Below, one piece after another: positions 2-13,963 of a stretch of DNA of 20,550 nt; the stretch's first letter is position 1; every line of letters starts with the position of its first letter. Origin of the DNA: a virus; IMG/VR virus record IMGVR_UViG_3300037119_005152, positions 1 through 20,550 of that record. One strand, 5' to 3'. The notes beneath the pieces are model-generated. The model saw only the letters and a program-made list of their open reading frames with translations, was not told where the DNA came from and did not search any database. Both the position numbers and the translations under genes were made by a program.

Positions 2-1522
2 ACCATGGCGGGCATGACGGATGCGACTGAGAAGGCCGCGCTTGCTACCGCGGTGTTCGGCAAGGGTGGCGCCGAGATGGTCCGCGTGCTCGACCAGGGC
101 AGCCAATCCATCGAGGCGATGAAGCAGAACGCCAAAGACCTTGGCATCATCATTCCCGAGGATCTGATAGCCCGGTCCGGCGCACTGGACGACAAGCTGA
201 CGACGTTAGCAAAAGTCATCGAAGTCAACCTCAGTGAAGCGCTCGTCAAGGCCGCGCCGCTGCTCGTCGCCGCCGCCGAGGGCATGGTGAAACTCGCGAA
301 GGGAGCCAACGCTGCCAGCAACGCGTACAACGCGTTTATGGAAGTGCTTCATCCGGAGCCGGTGGCGGTGCTCAACGATGAACTCTACACGACCCAGGTG
401 CGGATGAAGGAAGTCGGGGACGAGGTCAGGGTGGCCGAGGCCGAGCTGGCGAAGCTCAAGGCGGACCTGGTAGGCGCACCGGCCGCTATTGTCGAGGTTC
501 AGACCGCCGAAGCCCAGGCAAAGATAGATGGGCTGCGTGCGCAACTAGATGATCTGGACGCCCACGCGAAAGACATCAAGGTCACCATGGACACCGAGCA
601 GGCCCGCGCCGCGATAGACCAACTCCGCTCGTCCGACCTGGCCGCGCTGAACGCGGATGATGCCGCCCGTGCCAACCGGCCACGCGTCCACCGCGGCGGC
701 ACCGGCGGCACCGGCGGCACCGGCACCGGCCGCAGCGGCGGCGCCACCGGTGGCGATGGCAGCGGCGGCTTTGACCCGGAGTTCCTCCGGCAGCGCGCCA
801 ACAGCGATGCCATCCTGGAGTACCTGCGCGGGCAAGAGGGGCGATGGGGCACCACGTACCTGCGCGGCGGGCAAGAGACGAATAAGCTGCTGCAGGGAGG
901 CAACGATCTTGCTCAGGCGACGGAAGCGGACATCGAAGAGGCCATCGCGAACCAGGAGCGGGGGATCAAGACGACGGAGAACGGGGTCGACGTGACGAGG
1001 TACGGCCTCGAAAACAGCGCCCAGATAATCACCGGCAGCATCGACAGGAACGGTTATTACGTTAGCGGGCGGTTCGAGGAGGCGACCAGTGCGCAGACCA
1101 ACGCACTGCTGGGGGGGCTGGGAGGCAGCTTCCGCGACATGGGTACCGCGCTGCGGTCGATCCCATGGAACCAGCGCACCATGGCGGCCGCTAATGAAAG
1201 TACCGGCTTCAGGTTCTCCGGTCTCGGCAACGCCGACAGTTGGGCCGGCAAGCGCCTGACGATCGGCGGCGGCAGTACATCGATGCACAACCGGTTCGGC
1301 AAGGGCTTTTGGGGAACGACAGATCCCGCCTTGTCGATGGGGACGTCTGGCATCGAGGGCACCTCGACGATCACCAGCGGCGGCGGCGCTGCCATCAACG
1401 TCAACGTGACCGTCCGACCGATCCTGGAGGGGACGCGGCTGTCAGCGCAGAGCGCGGCGGAAATCAAGCAGGCGGCATCGGCCGGCGCCAATGCGGCCTT
1501 GAGGGCGTTCAATGGTCGATAA
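2..1522 (+). CDS. Phage tail tape measure protein, C-terminal part (5' truncated by window)
   Basis: The frame is open to the first base of the window, so the ATG at 5 is probably internal and the N-terminus lies outside. The first ~100 residues (VFGKGGAEMVRVLDQGS, then an LGIIIPEDLI-like stretch) resemble prophage tail length tape measure proteins (TMP_2 type), which set tail length and pass through the tail tube. Residues ~130-215, counted from that ATG, are Ala/Glu/Lys-rich and likely coiled coil. A Gly/Thr/Ser linker follows at ~228-256, then a C-terminal region ending in a hydrophobic, Ala-rich segment. Its end overlaps the start of the distal tail gene by 11 bases. Position directly before distal tail and hub genes fits the standard siphophage tail order. 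The family call is firm, the full length unknown. Confidence 0.85.
   Translation, partial: TMAGMTDATEKAALATAVFGKGGAEMVRVLDQGSQSIEAMKQNAKDLGIIIPEDLIARSGALDDKLTTLAKVIEVNLSEALVKAAPLLVAAAEGMVKLAKGANAASNAYNAFMEVLHPEPVAVLNDELYTTQVRMKEVGDEVRVAEAELAKLKADLVGAPAAIVEVQTAEAQAKIDGLRAQLDDLDAHAKDIKVTMDTEQARAAIDQLRSSDLAALNADDAARANRPRVHRGGTGGTGGTGTGRSGGATGGDGSGGFDPEFLRQRANSDAILEYLRGQEGRWGTTYLRGGQETNKLLQGGNDLAQATEADIEEAIANQERGIKTTENGVDVTRYGLENSAQIITGSIDRNGYYVSGRFEEATSAQTNALLGGLGGSFRDMGTALRSIPWNQRTMAAANESTGFRFSGLGNADSWAGKRLTIGGGSTSMHNRFGKGFWGTTDPALSMGTSGIEGTSTITSGGGAAINVNVTVRPILEGTRLSAQSAAEIKQAASAGANAALRAFNGR
695..727 (+). repeat. 9-bp tandem repeat coding a Gly-Gly-Thr linker
   Basis: Three perfect tandem copies of GGCGGCACC at 695-721, followed by a partial copy (GGCACC, 722-727). 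In frame it encodes Gly-Gly-Thr units, residues ~231-241 of the tape measure fragment. It lies between the coiled-coil region and the C-terminal region. Copy number could vary by slippage without breaking the frame. Confidence 0.8.
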
Positions 1523-2120
1523 CGTCATCATGGACGAGCGCATGGCGCTCGGCTTCAAGGGCGGCCCGACCTTTTCGACCGACAAGCTGGTGATGGTCAA
1601 CGGCCAGGAACGCCGGCTGCAGAACCGTTCGGTCGCCATCCACAACTACGTCTGGAGTTTCAAGAACACCTCGCTGGCGATCGAGGCCTCGCTCAAGGCG
1701 TTCTGGTTCGATCGGCGCGGTGATTTCAAGGCGTGGCTGCTGAAGGACTGGTCGGACTATTCCGGCACGCTGCAGGCCATCGGCGTCGGCACCGGCGCGC
1801 TCACCACCTTCCAGCTCATCAAGACCTATACGGCGGCGGGGTCGAACCCATACCAGCGCACGATCCGGCATATCAAGGCCGGTACGCTGTCGGTTTATGT
1901 CGACGGCGTCCTGGCGCCTGACACCGGCTACACGGTCACCGGCACCGGGCTGATTACGTTTTCCGTCGCGCCGGCCAGCGGCAAGATCGTCACGGCCACA
2001 TATGAATTCTTCGTGCCCGTGCGCTTCGAGGGCGATCGCTTCACATCGATTGTCGACTTCCAGCCGCAGATGGACATCATATCCATTGAAGACGTGACCG
2101 CGATCGAGGTCGTCCCGTGA
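1512..2120 (+). CDS. Distal tail protein, DUF2460 / RcGTA g12 type
   Basis: 202 residues. The N-terminus (GFKGGPTFSTDKLVMVNGQE, then RRLQNRSVAIHNYVWSF) matches the pattern of the TIGR02217/DUF2460 family, whose RcGTA member is the distal tail protein that links tail tube and baseplate hub. The middle (residues ~60-75, FWFDRRGDFKAWLLKDWSDY) is the family's characteristic Asp/Trp-rich segment. The ATG at 1512 has GAGGG about 7 bases upstream and overlaps the tape measure end; an in-frame ATG at 1530 is the alternative. It ends in a GTGA overlap with the hub gene. Gene order tape measure, this gene, hub is the same as in RcGTA and many alphaproteobacterial siphophages. Confidence 0.85.
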   Translation: MVDNVIMDERMALGFKGGPTFSTDKLVMVNGQERRLQNRSVAIHNYVWSFKNTSLAIEASLKAFWFDRRGDFKAWLLKDWSDYSGTLQAIGVGTGALTTFQLIKTYTAAGSNPYQRTIRHIKAGTLSVYVDGVLAPDTGYTVTGTGLITFSVAPASGKIVTATYEFFVPVRFEGDRFTSIVDFQPQMDIISIEDVTAIEVVP

Positions 2121-2932
2121 GAAGCTGGGACTCCGCGCTGCTCGCCATGTTGAGCGGCGGCGAAGTCACAAGATGCTTCCTGGCCGAACTCACCAATCCG
2201 ACCGGTCAGACCGTTCGCCTTACCAACCATGACGTCGATATGATCGTCGGCGCGGACACCTACATCAAGACGCCCGGCTTCAACCTCTCCCGGTATACCG
2301 TGAAGAACGGCGGCGAGGCCGCGACGCTCGATTTCGAAATTCCGCTTTCCGATGAGGGGCCGATCCTGATTGAGCATGTTCGCCGCGGCGCATGGCGTGG
2401 CGCGACGATCATTGTCTGGGTCGCGGATACGGCCGTCCCGGCGCATCGCAACGTCCTGGCCGAAGGGTTCGTCGGGCGCCTTGATTTCACCGACCGACTT
2501 CAGGGTACGATGGAACTGGTCACGCTTGCCGATGCGCTGAAGGACGTCTTGCTGTTCACGATCCAGCCGGCGTGTCCGTTCAAGTTCTGCGGCCGGGAAT
2601 GCGGCGCCGTTGAAGCGACATGGACGCGGGCGGGCGAGGTGACATCGGTCATCAGCCGCCGCTCCTTCACGGCCACGATCGCCAGTCCCGGTGCTCTTAA
2701 CTTCGCGCACGGCAAGGTGACGTGGACGTCCGGCGCCAATGCCGGCGCGACCGGCTGGGTGCGCGACTGGACGTCCGGCACGGGGACTTTCGCGATGGTG
2801 ACCGACTTCCCGTTCGACATCGCGGTCGGCGACGATTTCCAGGTGCTGGCCGGCTGCAGGAAGAACCGCGCCGATTGCGCGGCATATAACAACATCGACC
2901 GCTACGGCGGGTTCGACTTCGTGGCGCGCTGA
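2117..2932 (+). CDS. Baseplate hub protein, DUF2163 / BR0599 type
   Basis: 271 residues, GTG start overlapping the previous stop (GTGA). The N-terminal half (residues ~17-150) looks like DUF2163, the C-terminal part like Phage_BR0599. The RcGTA counterpart is the hub protein, functionally like lambda gpL. Cysteines lie at ~153, 158 and 162 (CPFKFCGREC) and at ~247 and 254 (CRKNRADC). In this family and in gpL such a set is known or proposed to hold an iron-sulfur cluster; here that is inferred from spacing only. The gene ends TGATG into the next one. In RcGTA-like clusters an NlpC/P60 peptidase gene usually comes next; it is absent here. Confidence 0.85.
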   Translation: MRSWDSALLAMLSGGEVTRCFLAELTNPTGQTVRLTNHDVDMIVGADTYIKTPGFNLSRYTVKNGGEAATLDFEIPLSDEGPILIEHVRRGAWRGATIIVWVADTAVPAHRNVLAEGFVGRLDFTDRLQGTMELVTLADALKDVLLFTIQPACPFKFCGRECGAVEATWTRAGEVTSVISRRSFTATIASPGALNFAHGKVTWTSGANAGATGWVRDWTSGTGTFAMVTDFPFDIAVGDDFQVLAGCRKNRADCAAYNNIDRYGGFDFVAR

Positions 2933-3723
2933 TGGTCCTCGCGATAACCGGCGGCGATGCAGGCGCCGCCTCCATGGCCCAGTCACAGTGGGCGCGCTTC
3001 CAGCCATCGGGGCCGACGTCGCATACCGAGGTCACAACCAACCCGGCCCAGTTGTCAGCCAGGACAGATGTCAACCAAGCGCAGCAGGCGCTCGGTCAGC
3101 CATTGCCGGTCGTCATCGGCACGGGCCGTGTCGATGGCATCTATTTCATCGGCGGCGTCGAGACCGTCTCGACCGTGACGGAGACGACGACGACGACCCC
3201 TAACCCGCCATCGAACCAGTATGTCACGATCGTCGGCGGCAACATGGGATCCGCTTCCATGGTGGCCTCGCAGTGGAGAATGTTCGGCGGCGGCAGCACC
3301 TCCGTCACCGAGGCAGTGACGGAAATCGAGAACCAGACAATGGCCGGCTATGTCCTGGCCTACGACGCTTACGAGCGCGGATATGATCTGGTCCGGCTGG
3401 AGATCGATGGCCAGGTCGTCTACGACATCGAGGCGGGGATCCCGGCCTCGCAGACATTCCGCTTCTATGGCGGCCGGCATGCGTCGACCGACGCGATCCT
3501 GACCGAGATCATCGGCGCCAATGCCGGCGCCTACAAGAACTTCGTGATGGTCTTTATCGACGGCTACCCCTCCGATTCGCCGCCGGGGGTGTCAGCCGTG
3601 ATTTCCAACTACGCCAACAGCGGCATTCCGAAGAAGGCCGATCTTAAGGATCTCATCACCGATATCATGTTCCTGGCCGGGTTCGGACCGGCCGATCTGA
3701 CGTTCGAGGGTTTTGGCAGCTAA
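2932..3723 (+). CDS. Tail tip protein, N-terminal half (J/megatron-like, split)
   Basis: 263 residues. It shows the start of a J-like/GTA-megatron tip protein: GQPLPVVIGTGRVDG (~55-69) corresponds to the usual G-x-P-I-P-x-V-Y-G-x-x-R-V-x-G signature. EIDGQVVYDIEAG lies in the middle (~157-169) and KKADLKDLITDIMFLAGFGPADL near the end corresponds to the next conserved tip-protein segment. That segment normally runs straight on to a G-Y/F-V-I-D motif, but here the frame ends and the motif appears in the next gene after ~175 extra residues. A ~30-residue motif is repeated: GGDAGAASMAQSQW near residue 7 and GGNMGSASMVASQW near 102. The stop overlaps the next start (TAATG). Probably one half of a two-piece tip protein. 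Confidence 0.7.
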   Translation: MVLAITGGDAGAASMAQSQWARFQPSGPTSHTEVTTNPAQLSARTDVNQAQQALGQPLPVVIGTGRVDGIYFIGGVETVSTVTETTTTTPNPPSNQYVTIVGGNMGSASMVASQWRMFGGGSTSVTEAVTEIENQTMAGYVLAYDAYERGYDLVRLEIDGQVVYDIEAGIPASQTFRFYGGRHASTDAILTEIIGANAGAYKNFVMVFIDGYPSDSPPGVSAVISNYANSGIPKKADLKDLITDIMFLAGFGPADLTFEGFGS

Positions 3724-5981
3724 TGGCTACGTCAACCCTCTCGTTCCAGGGCTACTTCATCCAGGACGACGACGTGCAATTGTTCAATTTCACAGCCATT
3801 GCCCCGTCTACCGTGACGTTCCGGTCATTCTCATACGCGGGTGGCGTGAACGGCGCCGGCGCAACGATCCTGCGCGGTGGATTTGATCCGATGCTCGCCG
3901 TCTTCGACGGCGACGGACTCCTGATCGATCAGATCGACGACGACGCGCCTGGCGTGGCGGATGGTGATGGCGTTCCAGTCGACCCGATGACGGGTAACTA
4001 TCAGGATACACTCTTCACGTTATCGCTGGCAGCGGGAACCTATACCGTAGCCATCATGCAGGTTGACAACTGGGCCAATGGTCCGCTGCTCAGCGACGGC
4101 TTTGCGAAAGTCGGACAGGGCAACTACACGGGCGACATTGGGTGCAGCCAGGGGTTCTTCTGCGATACGGCTGGAGGTGATGCAGTCAATCGCGACGGAC
4201 ATTGGGCATTCGACATCATCGGCGTGGAAACAGGTGGCATCGGCGCCGCCATCCCCACCTACGGATTTGTCATCGACAGCGACACCACGGTCCAGACCGT
4301 CGTCCGGTCGATAGCGGACATCTATGGATTCTCGTGGTGCGATACGGGTTCCGGTTTTTTCTTCAAGAAGAGGGAGCGGGACGAACCGTTCTCGATCGAC
4401 ATCGCGCTCGATGCCGACGATATCGTTGAGGCCGTGCAGCCGGTCCGGTCGAGCGACGAGGCCAGCATCAGGACGCCGTCTACCGTCGAGATGGAATATG
4501 TCTCCAAGGAAGGCGGCTACAAGTCTCGGCCCGTTTCGTTCAACATGACCGTGGGTGTCCTGAACTCGATCACCAAGCCGAAGTTCTCGACGCCGATCCT
4601 GTTCGACGACGCGGAGGCGCAGCGCATCGTCACCGAAAAGTTTTTCGAGTACCAGGAAAAACGCCGCAGCCACAGCCTGACTGTCGCGCCGGAAAACATT
4701 GTTCTGCTGCCCGGCGACATCGTTTCCTTTCCGTCCGGCACGCGCACCTACATCACTCGCGTCGAGGAGATAGCGATCGACCTGCGCAACATGGGCGTGG
4801 AGATTAGCGCGCGCGACTTCCAGACCGAGGTCGCGACCCCGATTACGGCGGTTAGCAATACCGGTCCCGTCTGGCAGGTGGTCTACCTGGCGAGCCAGTA
4901 TGTTCACCTCGACATGCCGCTATTGCGCTACAGCGACGACGCCGCCGGCACCTCGCTGGTTCAGTACGGCGTGTTGATGCCGCACAGTCAGGAGCTATGG
5001 TCCGGGGCTTCGCTCTACCGCAGCCCGGTTACGACGGGATATGTCCCGATCTTCAGCCAGTTGCCGCATGCCGGCGTCCTGGGCACCTGCGAAACGGTCC
5101 TGCCGGCGCCGGCCGACCCGTTTGCGCTCGACGATGGCTCGACCCTCACCATCCGCCGCACCACCGCCGCCGCCACCCTGCTGATCGACGCCACCGAGGC
5201 AGAGGTGCTGGATGGCGCCAACAATGCGCTGGTCGGCACCAACGGCCGTTGGGAATGGGTAGGGTACAAGACGGTTGCCGACAATGGCGACGGCACCTAC
5301 ACGCTCAGCGGGTTCACGCTCAGGGGCTACCGCGGCTCGGAAGTGTTCTGCGGCCTGCACGAGATCGACGACACGTTCATCACGATCGACCAGGCGTGGG
5401 TGCGGAGCATGGGACACCCGGTTGTCGATCTCGGCGACACGTTCAATTACAAGGCGGCCGGCTTCGGGCAGAGCCTGAGCTACATCGATGAAACGCGGCA
5501 CACCATTCCCGGCACGGCCGAGACGCCCTATGCACCGACCGGTCTCAAGGCCGACGAAGGCAGCCCGAACGGCATCGACATCAGTTGGGACTATCGGTCG
5601 AGGATAACGACCGGGTTCAATCCGGCCGAACACGGCGAGGCGGCGCTGGCGTTCGAGGTCGATATCTATGACACGGACGGCACAACCTACATCCGCACGC
5701 TGACGACGGCCACGAATTCCGTCCACTATGCCGCGGCGGACGTGATCACGGACTTCGGTTCGGATCCTCCAGCCGAATGTTTCTTCCGGGTCTATATGAT
5801 GTCGGCGCTGCCGATCTTCGTCGCTGGCCAGGATCGGCCCGTCGCGGGGCGCGGCTACGAAGCCCGCGGGCATTTCCCGACAGTTGCGCTGCTGCTGTCC
5901 GGCGACATGCAGAGCGGCACCGATAACGTCAAACTGTCCGGCGATGCAGCGCCCGGCAACCTGCTGCTGACTGAGGAATAG
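3723..5981 (+). CDS. Tail tip protein, C-terminal half, with N-terminal DVUA0089/FDP-type domain
   Basis: 752 residues. Residues ~1-172 resemble DVUA0089-family (FDP) domains: an FNFTA...PSTVTFRSFSYAGG strand pair, a GGFDPMLAVFDGDG motif, then LAAGTYTVAIMQVDN and a late LSDGF. This domain is otherwise typical of secreted and PEP-CTERM proteins. From ~177 (YGFVIDSDTTVQTVVRSIAD) to ~380 the protein is a Phage-tail_3-like tip domain, including LLPGDIVSFPSGTRTYITRV. The middle contains a VGTNGRWEWVGYKT region. Residues ~598-715 look like a fibronectin-III-type domain (APTGLKADEGSPNGIDISWDY). Translation is coupled to the preceding half (TAATG). The two proteins should meet in the baseplate; the extra domain would sit at the tip, perhaps for binding host surface glycans (inference). 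Confidence 0.75.
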   Translation: MATSTLSFQGYFIQDDDVQLFNFTAIAPSTVTFRSFSYAGGVNGAGATILRGGFDPMLAVFDGDGLLIDQIDDDAPGVADGDGVPVDPMTGNYQDTLFTLSLAAGTYTVAIMQVDNWANGPLLSDGFAKVGQGNYTGDIGCSQGFFCDTAGGDAVNRDGHWAFDIIGVETGGIGAAIPTYGFVIDSDTTVQTVVRSIADIYGFSWCDTGSGFFFKKRERDEPFSIDIALDADDIVEAVQPVRSSDEASIRTPSTVEMEYVSKEGGYKSRPVSFNMTVGVLNSITKPKFSTPILFDDAEAQRIVTEKFFEYQEKRRSHSLTVAPENIVLLPGDIVSFPSGTRTYITRVEEIAIDLRNMGVEISARDFQTEVATPITAVSNTGPVWQVVYLASQYVHLDMPLLRYSDDAAGTSLVQYGVLMPHSQELWSGASLYRSPVTTGYVPIFSQLPHAGVLGTCETVLPAPADPFALDDGSTLTIRRTTAAATLLIDATEAEVLDGANNALVGTNGRWEWVGYKTVADNGDGTYTLSGFTLRGYRGSEVFCGLHEIDDTFITIDQAWVRSMGHPVVDLGDTFNYKAAGFGQSLSYIDETRHTIPGTAETPYAPTGLKADEGSPNGIDISWDYRSRITTGFNPAEHGEAALAFEVDIYDTDGTTYIRTLTTATNSVHYAAADVITDFGSDPPAECFFRVYMMSALPIFVAGQDRPVAGRGYEARGHFPTVALLLSGDMQSGTDNVKLSGDAAPGNLLLTEE

Positions 5982-7618: not shown

Positions 7619-8080
7619 ATGACCGAGCAGCCGCCTCCGCATCAGACCGGCGTCGTTGTCGCCGTGCTCAATGCCGTCAAGGGCATGAGCCTAACCAACG
7701 TGCTGGTCATCCTCGTCCTGGCCGTCGTGCTGCTGCCCAGCTATCTGATGTGGCGCATGCTCAACGACCCGGCCATGCTCGGCCGGTTCCTTAGCAGCTA
7801 TGAAGAGGTCACCAGCGATAAGTGGCCGTGCACGCTGCGCATTGCTAGCCTGCGCGGTAGCGGCGACCAGTACTCGATCTCGACCGGTTTCGCATATCAG
7901 GGCAGCGAGCGCTGGACGCTGGCGGTGCTGATGGATCGCAAGCCGACCGATTCCGAGATGCTGTCCTACTGCGAGACGCTGCAGTTATTGGTGGACTTCA
8001 TGCGGGATCCGACCAAGCACCCGCCACCATTTCCAGGCACCGAGGAACCGCTCATTCACATGTATCCCAATGGTCAATGA
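7619..8080 (+). CDS. Single-span membrane protein, unknown function
   Basis: 153 residues starting one base after the previous stop. A hydrophobic segment at ~25-45 (NVLVILVLAVVLLPSYLMW) predicts one membrane helix with a short cytoplasmic N-terminus. The remainder (~50-153), with LRIASLRGSGDQYSISTG and RWTLAVLMDRKP, would then be periplasmic; two cysteines (C71 area and C120 area) could pair. It overlaps the next, secreted, gene (ATGA). Not recognised. Its position at the end of the late operon among membrane proteins suggests an envelope function such as lysis support or superinfection exclusion, but the sequence itself shows neither. Confidence 0.55.
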   Translation: MTEQPPPHQTGVVVAVLNAVKGMSLTNVLVILVLAVVLLPSYLMWRMLNDPAMLGRFLSSYEEVTSDKWPCTLRIASLRGSGDQYSISTGFAYQGSERWTLAVLMDRKPTDSEMLSYCETLQLLVDFMRDPTKHPPPFPGTEEPLIHMYPNGQ

Positions 8081-8577
8081 AAGCGACCCTCGCCCTGGCG
8101 CTGCTGCTGCTGGCCTCGTCGGCCCATGCGGAGGCGCCGTGGCCGCGGGAAGACGAGATCGAGTTCAGTGCGAGCCAGTGCCGCGTCCTGCGCCAGATGC
8201 GCGTGGATGTGAGGGCCATCTGCGTCAAGAAATACCCGGCGCGGCGGCAGGAGCAGCGGCAACAGAAGGGCAACGCCCGTGACCAGCAGCAGCAAGAGGC
8301 ACCAGCACCTAGCGCACCTGCTGCCTCGCCTCCCGCCTCACCTTCGTCGCCTCCCGCGGGCGGGGGAGGCGGTGGAAATCAGCCTCCTGATCCTGGCAGT
8401 GGTGGCGGTGGTGGCCCTCCTGATGGCGGCGGCGGTGGCCCTGGTCCTCCTGACGGTGGGGGAGGTGGCGGCCCGCCTGACGGTGGCGGCGAAGGAGGCG
8501 GTGATGGAGGAGATACCGGTGAAGGCGCTGGCGGCGATCGGCCGCCCGGCGATTCGGAACGTGAGCAAGGAGACTAA
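8077..8577 (+). CDS. Secreted Gly/Pro-rich protein
   Basis: 166 residues with a clear signal peptide (KATLALALLLLASSAHA, cut before EAPWP). A short folded part follows (~20-60) with two cysteines (SASQCRVLRQM and VRAICVKKY), then a Gln/Arg stretch, a Pro/Ala/Ser stretch and a long low-complexity tail of GGGGGPPDG units. The ATG overlaps the previous stop (ATGA). Pro-rich exported partners occur in spanin pairs (Rz1), and this gene follows a one-span membrane protein, but there is no lipobox cysteine, so a spanin role is only a possibility. The Gly-rich tail makes another frame look hydrophobic; that frame is not called. Confidence 0.6.
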   Translation: MKATLALALLLLASSAHAEAPWPREDEIEFSASQCRVLRQMRVDVRAICVKKYPARRQEQRQQKGNARDQQQQEAPAPSAPAASPPASPSSPPAGGGGGGNQPPDPGSGGGGGPPDGGGGGPGPPDGGGGGGPPDGGGEGGGDGGDTGEGAGGDRPPGDSEREQGD

Positions 8578-9925: not shown

Positions 9926-10117
9926 ATGAATGCAACTGATCTCGCCGCCCAGGTGAAGGCCTGGCGCGGCAAGGTGCCGGCCAGGGTCGCCGCCGAGCAG
10001 ATCGGCGTCCCACGGCGCACGCTGGAATACATCGAGCAGGGCAATGGCTTCCGCTATCCGGAGCTGTTGCTCATCGCCCTCGAGGCCACAAGGGAGCGCA
10101 TCCGTGAGGCATCCTGA
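9926..10117 (+). CDS. Small XRE-like HTH protein upstream of integrase
   Basis: 63 residues with AGGAG 8 bases before the ATG. The core VKAWRGKVPARVAAEQIGVPRRTLEYIEQG is a helix-turn-helix (helices around residues 17-40) of the XRE/Cro type. Length and position directly before, and overlapping by 14 bases, the integrase gene suggest a directionality factor or a regulator of integrase. A simple XRE regulator is the alternative. No dimerisation domain is present. Confidence 0.65.
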   Translation: MNATDLAAQVKAWRGKVPARVAAEQIGVPRRTLEYIEQGNGFRYPELLLIALEATRERIREAS

Positions 10118-11240
10118 TTATCCCGGCGTCTCGTCGTTCACCGACAACCGCGGCACTCTGCGCTGGCGCTTCCGCTTCAAAGGGAAGACGACATACATGC
10201 CGGGCGAGCCGCACAGCAAAATCTTCATCGCGGCCTATCAGGCGGCGCTCGAGGGGCGCGCGTTCGATGCCACTGCCTACAAGGCCGAGGTGATCGGGCT
10301 GCCCGGCGCGGTCGGTCCCAAATCCTTCGATGCCGCCTGGCGGCTGGTCAAGCGGTCCGGCGAGTGGGAGGTGCTCGACAATTTCTCGACCAAGGCCGGC
10401 TACCAGACCGAGGCAGAGGAGTTCCTGGACTCGCTGGTCGAGGATGTTCCCGGCAGCCGCTGGGGCGCGATCGCCATACCGGAAGTCCGCCGCAAGCACA
10501 TCAAGGCGATCCTTTCGCGGTACGTCCGGCAGCCATTCAAGGCGCGCCGCCTGATGACGGTGCTGAAGAAGATGATCGTGGCGGCGATGGACGAGGAGTG
10601 GATCGATCACAATCCCTGCACCGACATCCATGTCAAGGCGAGCACGCAGGGCCACAAGGCTTGGCCGCTGGAGGTCCGCGAACAGTACGAGGCGCACTGG
10701 GCGCCAGGCACGCAGGCGCGCACCGCCTATGCGCTGGCCCTATGGCTTGGCGATCGCCGCAGCGATGTCGCTCGCGTCACCTGGGGTCAGCTCGGGTGGA
10801 AGAAGTCCATCATCGACGGCGTGCAGGAGCGGGTGCAGGGTTTCGAGTTCACGCAGCACAAGGGCCGTAACCGCAAGGGCGGCGGCAAGACCCTGTTCGT
10901 GCCGATGACGCCGATGCTGGCCGAGGCGCTGGCACCGCTGCGCCGCGGCAACGGCACCATCCTGACCAAGCAGACCGGCGAGCCGTATGCCGAGCGCTCA
11001 CTCAGCGAATCGATGAAGCGGTGGACGACCCAGGCGGGGCTGCCGCGCGGCTATGTCCTGCACGGGCTGCGCAAGACGCTCGGCGTGATGCTGGCCGAGT
11101 CCGGTGCATCGACCCGGCAGTTGATGGATATCCTCGGTCACGATGCCATCGCCCACGCCGAGCTATATTCGCGCGAAGCCTCGCAGATCCGGATGTCCTC
11201 GCAGGGCATGCTGCTGCTGGTGCCGAAGGGAAATGGATAG
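10104..11240 (+). CDS. int: Tyrosine recombinase (phage integrase)
   Basis: 378 residues from GTG 10104, which has AGGGAG upstream. An earlier in-frame ATG (10044) would add 20 unlikely residues and lies deep inside the HTH gene. The N-terminus (RGTLRWRFRFKGKTTYMPG) looks like an arm-binding domain, followed by a core-binding domain (~70-185). Catalytic residues can be placed: R219 in GDRRSDVARVTW, K253, H320 and R323 in HGLRKTLG, H346 in LGHDAIAHAELY, and nucleophile Y355. The enzyme looks intact. The gene ends GGATAG inside an arm-type repeat of the putative attP. Confidence 0.92.
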   Translation: MRHPDYPGVSSFTDNRGTLRWRFRFKGKTTYMPGEPHSKIFIAAYQAALEGRAFDATAYKAEVIGLPGAVGPKSFDAAWRLVKRSGEWEVLDNFSTKAGYQTEAEEFLDSLVEDVPGSRWGAIAIPEVRRKHIKAILSRYVRQPFKARRLMTVLKKMIVAAMDEEWIDHNPCTDIHVKASTQGHKAWPLEVREQYEAHWAPGTQARTAYALALWLGDRRSDVARVTWGQLGWKKSIIDGVQERVQGFEFTQHKGRNRKGGGKTLFVPMTPMLAEALAPLRRGNGTILTKQTGEPYAERSLSESMKRWTTQAGLPRGYVLHGLRKTLGVMLAESGASTRQLMDILGHDAIAHAELYSREASQIRMSSQGMLLLVPKGNG

Positions 11241-11415
11241 CACGCGTGGATAGCAGGTCCGAAAATGCCTCGTAAGCCTTTGAAAGGACTAGGGCCTTGA
11301 CTTTGTATCATGTTGAGGCCGATCAGCGCAAAATCAAAGGCTTGCGAGGCCGGTTATCCACGTTCGTTCCCGCATCGTACCGCCCGGTTATCCATTTCCG
11401 CCGCCCGGTTATCCA
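11234..11415. other. Putative attP with five integrase arm-type repeats
   Basis: Five copies of a TATCCA(C/T)-core motif bracket the int/excisionase-like intergenic region. On the left, in reverse orientation, are TGGATAGCA at 11234-11242 and 11247-11255. On the right, CCGGTTATCCA occurs at 11350-11360, 11384-11394 and 11405-11415. Right-hand spacings are 34 and 21 bases, about helical turns. Two outward groups around a central segment are the normal plan for a lambda-type attP. The crossover core is not identified; it should lie between 11256 and 11349. The TTATCCAC cores also resemble DnaA boxes, so a replication role cannot be excluded. Confidence 0.6.
11267..11350. repeat. 17-bp inverted repeat in the middle of the putative attP
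   Basis: GCCTCGTAAGCCTTTGA at 11267-11283 and TCAAAGGCTTGCGAGGC at 11334-11350 are complementary at 16 of 17 positions, separated by 50 bases. The left arm also holds a CCTTT-g-AAAGG mini-palindrome (11277-11287). The right arm touches the first right-hand arm-type repeat. It may be a recombinase or accessory factor site, or a hairpin at the end of the converging transcripts. Confidence 0.7.
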
Positions 11416-11660
11416 CGCCGCCGGGCGCCCTCGGCGAACAGCGCGTCGAGTGTATTTTCCTCGTCGCCGGGCAGCGCCTTGAACGCGAGGCGCAGAGCTT
11501 CCTGATCCCAGACCTTGCGGTTGTTAACGCACTTCGGCCGCGGCATGCGCCGGTCCCTTACCATCTCGTCAAATAGCGTCGGGCCGATGCCGACATAGTG
11601 GGCCGCGTCCTCGCGCGACATGCCGAGCGGCGGGTAGGATTTTGGGTCAGGCTTCAGCAT
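11409..11660 (-). CDS. Excisionase-like HTH DNA-binding protein
   Basis: 83 residues from the ATG at 11660, which is preceded on the minus strand by GGAGGGTGA at good spacing; a start 8 codons earlier lacks this. The core GMSREDAAHYVGIGPTLFDEMVRDRRMPRPKCVNNRKVWDQEALRLAF is a winged-helix/AlpA-excisionase pattern (helix-turn-helix, then a wing with a basic NRKVWD). Last gene of the recombination operon and next to attP opposite int, so an excisionase role is likely. Its stop codon TAA is part of the outermost arm-type repeat (11405-11415). Confidence 0.7.
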   Translation of the reverse strand: MLKPDPKSYPPLGMSREDAAHYVGIGPTLFDEMVRDRRMPRPKCVNNRKVWDQEALRLAFKALPGDEENTLDALFAEGARRRG

Positions 11661-11665
11661 ATGCG

Positions 11666-11776
11666 TCACCCTCCAAACAGCCACCAGGCCAGGGCGAACT
11701 CGGCGGCCAGCGCCAGCGTGAACGAGACGCAGAACACCGACAGGAAACTGAGCGCGGCGCCGGGCCGGACGATCAT
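11666..11776 (-). CDS. 36-residue membrane peptide coupled to recT
   Basis: A short frame starting with an ATGA overlap with the recT stop and ending 5 bases before the next start. The peptide begins MIVRPGAALSF and is one hydrophobic helix (LSVFCVSFTLALAAEFALAW) ending WWLFGG. Its TGA sits within the ribosome site of the downstream HTH gene, so translating it may help start that gene. Evidence is the double coupling and the membrane-helix character; there is no family match. Confidence 0.55.
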   Translation of the reverse strand: MIVRPGAALSFLSVFCVSFTLALAAEFALAWWLFGG

Positions 11777-12777
11777 GGCAGCGACTCGATGTAGCGTTTG
11801 GCTGCCGCCGGCTTCAGTTCGGAGCGGACAACCTTGGCGGCAGTCTCGACCACCGTCTTGATCAAGTCGGCCGGCAAGTTCCCCGCAAGCTTGCCGGCCT
11901 CGGCACGCAGCTCATCAAGCATGACCAGCCGCGTATCCAGGTCGAATCCTTCGCGGGTGGCGAGCTGCATCGCCGAATCAATGAGTGCCTTGCGCGCCGC
12001 AGCGGGCGGCAGCGACGAGGGGGGCTCGGAGGGCGAGGTCTCGCCGCTGCCTTCACCGGCAGTTGGGCGGGGGGCCGTTGTGGCTGCCGGCGATTCGGGA
12101 TCGGCGGCGGTTGAAGCTTGCTGAAGCCCTTCACCGCCGCCGCGCTCGGCCGCCGCTGATGAGGGGGTGGACAGGCCGGCCGAACTGCTCATTTCGGTGC
12201 CGGCCGCGAACGCGTCAAGATCGTCGATGGCCTGCGCTTCCGTAATTTTTTCCTGCACGACGATTGGTTTCATGTCGCGCGCCTCGTCCTCGTCGATGAC
12301 GCCGGAAAAGCCGAAGCAGTAGCGGGCCGCTTCCTTGAACGCCTTGTGCCGCAGCATCCTGGCTGGCATCAGGTTCCACGGCTCCGTGTTGCGGTAGCAC
12401 TCGCTCAGGAATTCCGTCACCACCACCGGCTGGTCATGGTTTTTGCGAAACATGGTGCAGGTGGCGGACCGGAGCCGGCCTTCCTCGTCGTGGCCATAGG
12501 TGAAGGAAAAGCCGTTGCAGTCAGGATGGCTGTTGACCAGGTGGATCCAGCCGTCGATCGACACCACCGGATTGATGCCGCCGCCCTTGCCGGGGAACGC
12601 ATAGATTTCCTTCGTGAAGGGGTCGAGTCCATAGCGGTCGGCGACCATCAGGAATGCCGCGACCTGTTCCTTGGTGATGGCGCTCGGCATCATCGTGTTC
12701 TTGAGGGTGTTGTAATAGGTCGCGGCATCGATATGGCGCCGTTCGGCCATGCGCTCGATGAGACTGGTGCCGGTCAT
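11773..12777 (-). CDS. bet: Phage recombination protein Bet/RecT (single-strand annealing)
   Basis: 334 residues from the ATG at 12777 (GGAG upstream, ATGA overlap with the preceding gene); a longer frame upstream is in the zinc-finger gene's shadow. The N-terminal ~190 residues match lambda Bet/RecT: ITKEQVAAFLMVADRYGLDPFTKEIYAFP, VSIDGWIHLVNSHP, and RMLRHKAFKEAARYCFGF near the end of the core. Known role: binds single-stranded DNA made by the partner exonuclease and anneals it. A Pro/Ser/Ala-rich linker (~205-265) and a helical C-terminal domain follow, as in many Bet proteins. The YqaJ exonuclease is two genes upstream in the same operon. Confidence 0.9.
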   Translation of the reverse strand: MTGTSLIERMAERRHIDAATYYNTLKNTMMPSAITKEQVAAFLMVADRYGLDPFTKEIYAFPGKGGGINPVVSIDGWIHLVNSHPDCNGFSFTYGHDEEGRLRSATCTMFRKNHDQPVVVTEFLSECYRNTEPWNLMPARMLRHKAFKEAARYCFGFSGVIDEDEARDMKPIVVQEKITEAQAIDDLDAFAAGTEMSSSAGLSTPSSAAAERGGGEGLQQASTAADPESPAATTAPRPTAGEGSGETSPSEPPSSLPPAAARKALIDSAMQLATREGFDLDTRLVMLDELRAEAGKLAGNLPADLIKTVVETAAKVVRSELKPAAAKRYIESLP

Positions 12778-13049
12778 GCGGCTTGCTCCTGTTGTTGTTT
12801 TCTCTTGCGAAATGCGATCAGGCGGCAGCGGTTCGAGCAGATATGAGCGTTGCGCCGGACAGGTGCGAAGAGATCGCCGCAGACGCTGCAAGGTCGCGTG
12901 GCCGAGGGCACGATCCTGATGCCATAGCGCACCAGCAGCGCCAGCACGGCATAGCGGATGAAGGCCTCGCGGCCTTCCTTGCCTCGCACGCTGTCGATTG
13001 CATCGATGATGGCCGGCTCCAACCGAAAGCGGCTATGTTTGCCGCTCAT
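12774..13049 (-). CDS. Small zinc-ribbon protein between exonuclease and Bet
   Basis: 91 residues from the ATG at 13049 (MSGKHSRFRL). It overlaps the exonuclease stop (ATGA) and has GGAG upstream. The N-terminal half is helical and ribbon-helix-helix-like (FRLEPAIIDAIDSVRGKEGREAFIRYAV). The second half has a CSVCG...CSNRC metal-binding knuckle, followed by a basic tail (RLIAFRKRKQQQEQ). This suggests a DNA-binding accessory protein. It ends QEQAA, the same as the EEQAA end of the upstream exonuclease, because a 17-bp repeat spans both junctions. Confidence 0.65.
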   Translation of the reverse strand: MSGKHSRFRLEPAIIDAIDSVRGKEGREAFIRYAVLALLVRYGIRIVPSATRPCSVCGDLFAPVRRNAHICSNRCRLIAFRKRKQQQEQAA

Positions 13050-13062
13050 GCGGCTTGCTCCT
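12774..13062. repeat. 17-bp direct repeat at two coupled start sites
   Basis: TCATGCGGCTTGCTCCT occurs at 12774-12790 and again at 13046-13062. On the minus strand each copy holds a ribosome site (AGGAG), the codons for Gln-Ala-Ala, and the ATGA stop/start overlap. One copy starts bet, the other starts the zinc-ribbon gene. Confidence 0.8.
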
Positions 13063-13963
13063 CTGATGTCCTGGTGGTGCGGATCGGGTAACTCGTCGAC
13101 GCCTTGCGCATGTGCTCGGCGACGTGTCGCGGCTTGCGGGTGATGCGCCACCCCTCGCAGATGGCTTCCTCGGCACCGTCCAGCTTGACGATGATCTCGG
13201 CTTCGATGGCCTTGCCTTCGGCCACAGCGGCCCGCTCAGCGGCTTTCGCCGCCTCGAGGCCATCCAATAGGGTTCCGATGCGATTGTCGCTGGTGAGGTC
13301 CAGAACCGGGCTGTCTGGCTGCGCCGGGAACAGCCGCCCGATGAAGTCGGCGTCCTTGGTATAGTCGGGATCCGGGCGGCGGCCGCTGGCGACCCTGTGC
13401 CAGAACTCGAGCGCAAGCTGCCGGATGCGATCCTCGGCCGCTTCGTGGCGCGGCACGTCGAACAGCTTCAGCTCGGCGTCGTAGGCCGACACCACCAGCA
13501 CGGCCAGGATGCCGCGGTCGGCACCAGTCAGCATGTTTTCGCAGACCACCTGCAGCTGGTAGCCGAGCGGCGCCTGGCCGTTCCAGCGATCGAACGTGTA
13601 GCGGTTGATGGTTTTTATCTGGCAGTTGACGAGGGCGCCGGTCTCGTCGGTGATGAAGGCGTCCGGCGTGCAGCCGAGCCGGTGCGCGGTGTCAGTGATG
13701 AAGATGGCCGGCCGCTCGATCTTCCAGTGCGGATGCTCATCGGCCAGGTACTCAAGTGCTGCGCCCTCGAACAGCCGACCGCGCTTCATCGCGGCATTCT
13801 CGACGACGTCCGGCACCAAGCCGGTCTTTTCCGCATAGACGCGCAGCGCGCTCTTGTAGGGATCGGCGCCGGCCACCGCCGGCACGTCGGACGCGGTCAG
13901 GAACTGCTTGCGCATGGCGAGCCATGACGCGCGATCGGTGACCGGGTGGCGCTCGATAGTCAT
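13046..13963 (-). CDS. YqaJ-type phage exonuclease (PD-(D/E)XK, lambda Exo-like)
   Basis: 305 residues. The N-terminal ~200 residues fit the YqaJ viral recombinase family: RKQFLTASDVPAVAGADPYKS, GRLFEGAALEYLA (E66), TPDAFI (D101), and YQLQVVCEN for the motif-III Gln/Tyr (Y135, Q136). The catalytic E-x-K position reads CQIKT, i.e. Q115 and K117, so the usual acidic residue is Gln. The family chews one strand from double-strand ends and hands the remaining strand to Bet/RecT. The C-terminal ~100 residues are helical. ATGA-coupled on both sides within the recombination operon. Family call firm; activity uncertain because of Q115. Confidence 0.85.
   Translation of the reverse strand: MTIERHPVTDRASWLAMRKQFLTASDVPAVAGADPYKSALRVYAEKTGLVPDVVENAAMKRGRLFEGAALEYLADEHPHWKIERPAIFITDTAHRLGCTPDAFITDETGALVNCQIKTINRYTFDRWNGQAPLGYQLQVVCENMLTGADRGILAVLVVSAYDAELKLFDVPRHEAAEDRIRQLALEFWHRVASGRRPDPDYTKDADFIGRLFPAQPDSPVLDLTSDNRIGTLLDGLEAAKAAERAAVAEGKAIEAEIIVKLDGAEEAICEGWRITRKPRHVAEHMRKASTSYPIRTTRTSEEQAA

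Follow-up and report, generated by a model that had tools for sequence, protein, structure and literature searches.

A DVUA0089/FDP domain inserted at a polymorphic break in a megatron-type phage tail-tip protein

Why should a phage tail-tip protein be encoded in two overlapping pieces that meet at the edge of a domain resembling bacterial secreted proteins? The locus raising this question lies in an IMG/VR virus record of 20,550 bases, hereafter called the window. The original prediction described a tail-tip protein split exactly where a foreign DVUA0089/FDP domain is inserted, with a coupled start at the split and a possible role of the domain at the host surface.

Tail module and identity of the two genes

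The tail genes follow the order distal tail protein, hub, gene 1 and gene 2, each overlapping its successor. The main features, with two recombination genes of the same phage, are:

1512..2120, plus strand: distal tail protein (DUF2460; family match)
2117..2932, plus strand: baseplate hub (PF09931/PF09356; family match)
2932..3723, plus strand: gene 1, N-terminal part of a megatron-type tail-tip protein, 263 aa (ORF and identity to relatives), with a helix and putative adhesin-like domain and then the first, helical part of the central domain
3610..3654, plus strand: insertion site 1 (after VISN), empty in the window, 14–15 aa, but occupied by a domain of 218–390 aa in most relatives (comparison of relatives)
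3723..5981, plus strand: gene 2, FDP domain with megatron central and fibre-binding parts, 752 aa (ORF and profile matches)
3732..4226, plus strand: FDP/DVUA0089 domain (NF038127), residues 4–168 of gene 2, at insertion site 2 (profile match and homologue alignment)
4278..4772, plus strand: Phage-tail_3 (PF13550), central domain (profile match)
5076..5378, plus strand: Rcc01698_C (PF23666; profile match)
11773..12891, minus strand: RecT-family annealase (family match)
13046..13963, minus strand: YqaJ-type recombination exonuclease (family match)

Genes 1 and 2 together encode a 'megatron' tail-tip protein of the RcGTA/R4C type, and the megatron profile matches confirm the predicted tail-tip identity. 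From residue 180, where YGFVIDSDTT starts, gene 2 constitutes the megatron core: it matched positions 787–1287 of NF048004 (E 2e-44), which together with PF13550 and PF23666 represent the central and fibre-binding domains of an RcGTA-type megatron, it also matched phrog_4271, and about 500 of its residues aligned with three phage megatrons in a profile comparison (E 6e-31). The NF048004 score (151.8 bits) is below the whole-protein equivalog cut-off of 800, and the protein is encoded in two ORFs, not as a single chain. A search for family matches to gene 1 returned none of its own; nevertheless, gene 1 is clearly the N-terminus of the protein of gene 2, since relatives have both in one ORF, and it is 36–70% identical to the N-termini of these unsplit relatives. 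For a putative N-terminal adhesin-like domain, profile comparison gave a weak match (E 0.03, probability 1.7%).

Structure models, which can be read as rough fold hints and are too weak for interfaces, were obtained for the FDP domain and for the protein of a sister contig in which the two genes are fused (see below). The best matches of the fused model (mean pLDDT 45, low confidence) were tail-tip proteins (8gtc_M, Z 12.2; also 8rk3, 6tba, 8vjh and lambda J), and this low-confidence model was collinear, N-terminal domain through core, with residues 65–970 of the RcGTA megatron (6tba_8A, Z 7.5). For FDP, the model (mean pLDDT 53) is a beta-sandwich nearest to PPC/collagen-binding and GOLD domains at borderline values (Z 8–9); a Foldseek search with it gave no match at E 0.001.

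A tyrosine integrase accompanies the RecT and YqaJ genes (10044–13963 in the window), which makes this a temperate phage that brings recombination genes of its own; RecT and YqaJ are plausible candidate agents of domain shuffling. Past the tail genes, positions 8077–8577 encode a small protein that looks secreted and ends in a long low-complexity tail rich in Gly and Pro.

The FDP domain and the two insertion sites

The identity and position of the domain are near certain. NF038127.1 (FDP_fam, DVUA0089 family) matched residues 4–168 of gene 2 over profile positions 4–150 of 150, scoring 136 bits for the isolated domain and 132 bits for the whole gene 2 protein against a cut-off of 29 (E = 1e-39). 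The match is far above chance, and the domain is intact and canonical. The predicted family assignment is thereby upheld, and the outcome that would have contradicted it, namely no match of the N-terminal residues of gene 2 to this profile, is excluded. The domain is located between LTFEGF and YGFVI. Relatives without the insert read F-x-G-F, 5 residues, Y-G-F, and it therefore sits exactly at the break, as had been proposed; this linker was 5 residues long in 13 related contig groups.

The nearest FDP homologues found are stand-alone secreted-type proteins of 190–240 residues, consisting of a signal peptide, the FDP domain and a PEP-CTERM-like tail, and the window's domain resembles only their mature part. 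It shares with secreted NF038127 proteins the full-length domain (30–56% identity) and the blocks GGFDP, DDD and AGTY; unlike them, it has neither signal peptide nor PEP-CTERM and is embedded in a virion protein, gene 2 opening directly with the mature domain and running on from it into the tail core. The nearest relative found (L072:897-1586, 52–56% identical) is on an IMG/VR contig, where it adjoins a prophage-like capsid region and carries the sorting tail VPGPIAGAGLPG...WWRKRRQ. The FDP domain was absent from 50,697 phage records, and tblastn found it in no other phages or plasmids; a motif scan of IMG/VR detected it, apart from L072, only in two sister contigs. No match at E 1e-6 was obtained in 397 genomes of the order of the Mesorhizobium prophage, in a search run without a positive control.

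The GC3 of the domain (0.70) is lower than that of every 510-base stretch of the neighbouring tail genes (0.77–0.88), a comparison of equal-sized segments that bears out the foreign origin put forward in the original prediction; GC3 is low (0.67–0.71) in the insert of the window as well as in those of two relatives, L005 and L006. We consider it very likely that the domain was acquired from a bacterial secreted protein. PEP-CTERM proteins have been associated with exopolysaccharide production and with soils, sediments and biofilms (PMC1569441), and one of them is reportedly involved in floc formation (PMC9850573). In the literature examined, no established function was found for FDP proteins.

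The tip protein was compared among 16 groups of IMG/VR contigs, the window's included, some of the contigs corresponding to prophages that also occur in Mesorhizobium loti DSM 2626 and Pseudaminobacter arsenicus CB3. Bulky domains are taken up at two points, after VISN (site 1) and between F-x-G-F and Y-G-F (site 2). Site 1 is occupied (218–378 aa) in the 13 groups that were measured, and their site 2 has only 5 aa; by inspection, L007 likewise has a filled site 1 and a short site 2. In the window's group, with FDP, and in L006, with an unrelated domain of ~290 aa, it is site 2 that is occupied, site 1 having 14–15 aa. Both sites were filled together in none of the relatives. By order, site 1 corresponds to the position of the RcGTA peripheral domain; site 2, within the central domain, is the more unusual location. 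The L006 domain (L006:5110-6000) occupies the same loop as FDP and has no Pfam match, and a diverse insert of ~340–390 aa, propeller-like in appearance, follows VISN in L007, L009, L010, L011, L013, L015 and others. For the inserts of L005, L006, L007 and L015, no convincing family was found in Pfam or PHROGs; WD40 matches were discarded for want of a passing stretch.

The linker GGIG lies after FDP in the window and ahead of the insert in L006, and this differing placement suggests that the two inserts arrived separately. Since both share a short site-1 linker, a single event may have shifted the occupied position from site 1 to site 2, and the mutual exclusivity of the sites may stem from that one ancestral switch and not from a rule. 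A search for cassette-like repeats at the insert borders found only the 5-bp TGGCA, within chance, and the junction motif had no second copy in the window, L005, L006 or L078.

The split junction and rival readings

Three short features define the break:

3708..3714, plus strand: heptamer G_GGT_TTT, in frame, two codons ahead of the stop (sequence)
3715..3719, plus strand: polymorphic junction, GGCAG in the window but AGA in its sister contig L002, the latter giving one ORF (contig comparison)
3721..3725, plus strand: TAATG, overlap of the gene 1 stop and gene 2 start (sequence)

Gene 1 ends ...DLKDLITDIMFLAGFGPADLTFEGFGS*, and the ATG of gene 2, in the -1 frame, overlaps the TAA by one base. 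A GAGGG ~11 bases upstream of this ATG is a possible ribosome-binding site, and the coupled start predicted at TAATG is supported. Anti-Shine-Dalgarno pairing there (-6.4 kcal/mol) is akin to that of neighbouring genes; pairing at the restart codons of the window and L005 is about -6 kcal/mol, an energy that ~1/10 of random positions reach. Translational coupling by short stop–start overlaps has been reported, as has their frequent occurrence between genes for subunits of the same complex (PMC6728339, PMC10666635). The junction reads GGTTTTGGCAGCTAATGG in the window and in L003, and GGTTTTAGACTAATGG in the sister L002, which has a single ORF (...TFEGFRLMATSTL...) covering the same protein sequence as genes 1 and 2. 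L002 agrees over all 11,784 bases of the L003 contig, with the junction as the sole difference. The remaining relatives are unsplit bar L005. There an independent split arises from an in-frame TAG that lies right at the far end of this relative's site-1 insert and precedes a GTG. This TAG with its nearby GTG (L005:5896-5910) constitutes a second split at an insert border in one lineage. The original prediction therefore needs amending in one respect: the split at the FDP edge is present, but it is polymorphic, and with the sister fused and all but one relative unsplit, the break is a property of the window's allele and not of the inserted domain. The fused sister also makes it unlikely that the split is a lasting lineage trait; the junction is either under active change or selection, or in error in one record.

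The last of these options belongs to a broader, rather unlikely reading, in which the split allele is non-functional or artefactual, the working gene is the fused sister ORF and the window is a defective variant or an assembly error. It accords with the single ORF of L002, identical over 11.8 kb except for AGA/GGCAG, with the unsplit state of nearly all relatives, and with the errors seen where contigs of this population end, as in the first two bases of the window, which do not agree with L069. However, the same split junction occurs in two records (the window and L003), and the change is compound, 5 to 3 bases, unlike a homopolymer error. GG follows TTTT in the window and also in L006, an unsplit relative, so that of the two forms the split may be the older; moreover, L005 is an independent split, and the start of gene 2 is well placed, with its plausible ribosome-binding site. 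A programmed -1 frameshift at G_GGT_TTT could also fuse the two genes: the heptamer fits X_XXY_YYZ exactly in the zero frame two codons ahead of the stop, and the product, EGF-WQLMATS, would nearly equal the EGF-RLMATS of the sister. Yet the codons GAG GGT TTT are also found in unsplit L006 and fused L002, so the heptamer is older than the split, and downstream structure was no better than in shuffles (z 0.58 and -0.52). Frameshifting was thus rejected as the main model, the heptamer being common to unsplit relatives and no stem-loop being found, that is, neither a split-specific slippery heptamer nor a downstream stimulator; we regard it as very improbable.

It is also unlikely, in our judgement, that FDP is a neutral passenger with no binding role, tolerated in a surface loop. 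The loop does take unrelated domains (FDP and that of L006), and the want of an established function for FDP proteins in the literature is compatible with such a role-free guest; against this, the FDP domain is intact and canonical, and every tip protein examined has one bulky insert at one of the two sites, which suggests selection for having one. A bolder idea, which we hold to be quite improbable, is that the junction is a natural switch between a one-chain and a two-chain tip and that FDP mimics a host matrix protein; displaying such a mimic, the phage would recognise biofilm matrix with the host's own parts.

Proposed model and comparison with known systems

We find it reasonably probable, overall, that the captured FDP domain is a swappable tail-tip adhesion module, carried on two coupled chains here and on one in the sister. 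A temperate siphophage with an RcGTA/R4C-like baseplate, whose relatives are prophages of Mesorhizobium and Pseudaminobacter, would have captured the mature domain of a DVUA0089-family protein secreted by bacteria. Within the central domain of the megatron, this FDP domain occupies a loop that separates the small helical element from the beta core. Exposed on the outside of the tail tip, it would serve as an accessory module for adhesion, its target being, for example, exopolysaccharide or the matrix that houses bacterial FDP proteins, and it would do the work that relatives leave to their insert at site 1, the 'peripheral' position of other megatrons. Two analogies make binding to the host surface plausible: the secretion and PEP-CTERM sorting of FDP proteins, and the carbohydrate binding, known or predicted, of other megatron and Dit inserts; an adhesion role is, to us, somewhat favoured. 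In the window's allele, with its out-of-frame junction, the ribosome would halt at the TAA and restart at the overlapping ATG, a route to two chains that we consider moderately likely; these would assemble together, and the sister allele would yield one chain. As the sister is fused, a protein in one chain may be preferred.

The locus illustrates unusually cleanly the move of a bacterial domain of extracellular-matrix type into a phage tail tip: relatives show the site unfilled or the loop taken by another visitor, and split as well as fused forms occur. Given that no established function for FDP proteins was found, the phage is a useful setting in which to ask if FDP binds matrix or exopolysaccharide, and the two-site pattern charts where GTA and phage megatrons accept new adhesion modules.

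Among known systems, the RcGTA/R4C megatron (Rcc01698; PDB 6tba/6teh, 8gtc) has the same PF23666 and PF13550 core as gene 2, and the distal tail–hub–megatron order is common to both baseplates; RDJL Phi 1 has a peptidase-type gene between hub and megatron that the window lacks. The RcGTA megatron carries a large peripheral domain (230–744) between the adhesin-like and central domains (PMC7296036), within which R4C has an extra carbohydrate-binding domain inserted (PMC10276861), whereas the window has no peripheral domain, bears its FDP insert inside the central domain and has its gene in two pieces. Evolved Dit and CBM-decorated siphophage tails of the lactococcal 936 type (PMC6669499) likewise contain a foreign binding-type domain inside a conserved tail protein; there, however, the tail protein and domain family are different and the hosts Gram-positive, and in the window, unlike in those tails, a gene split accompanies the insert.
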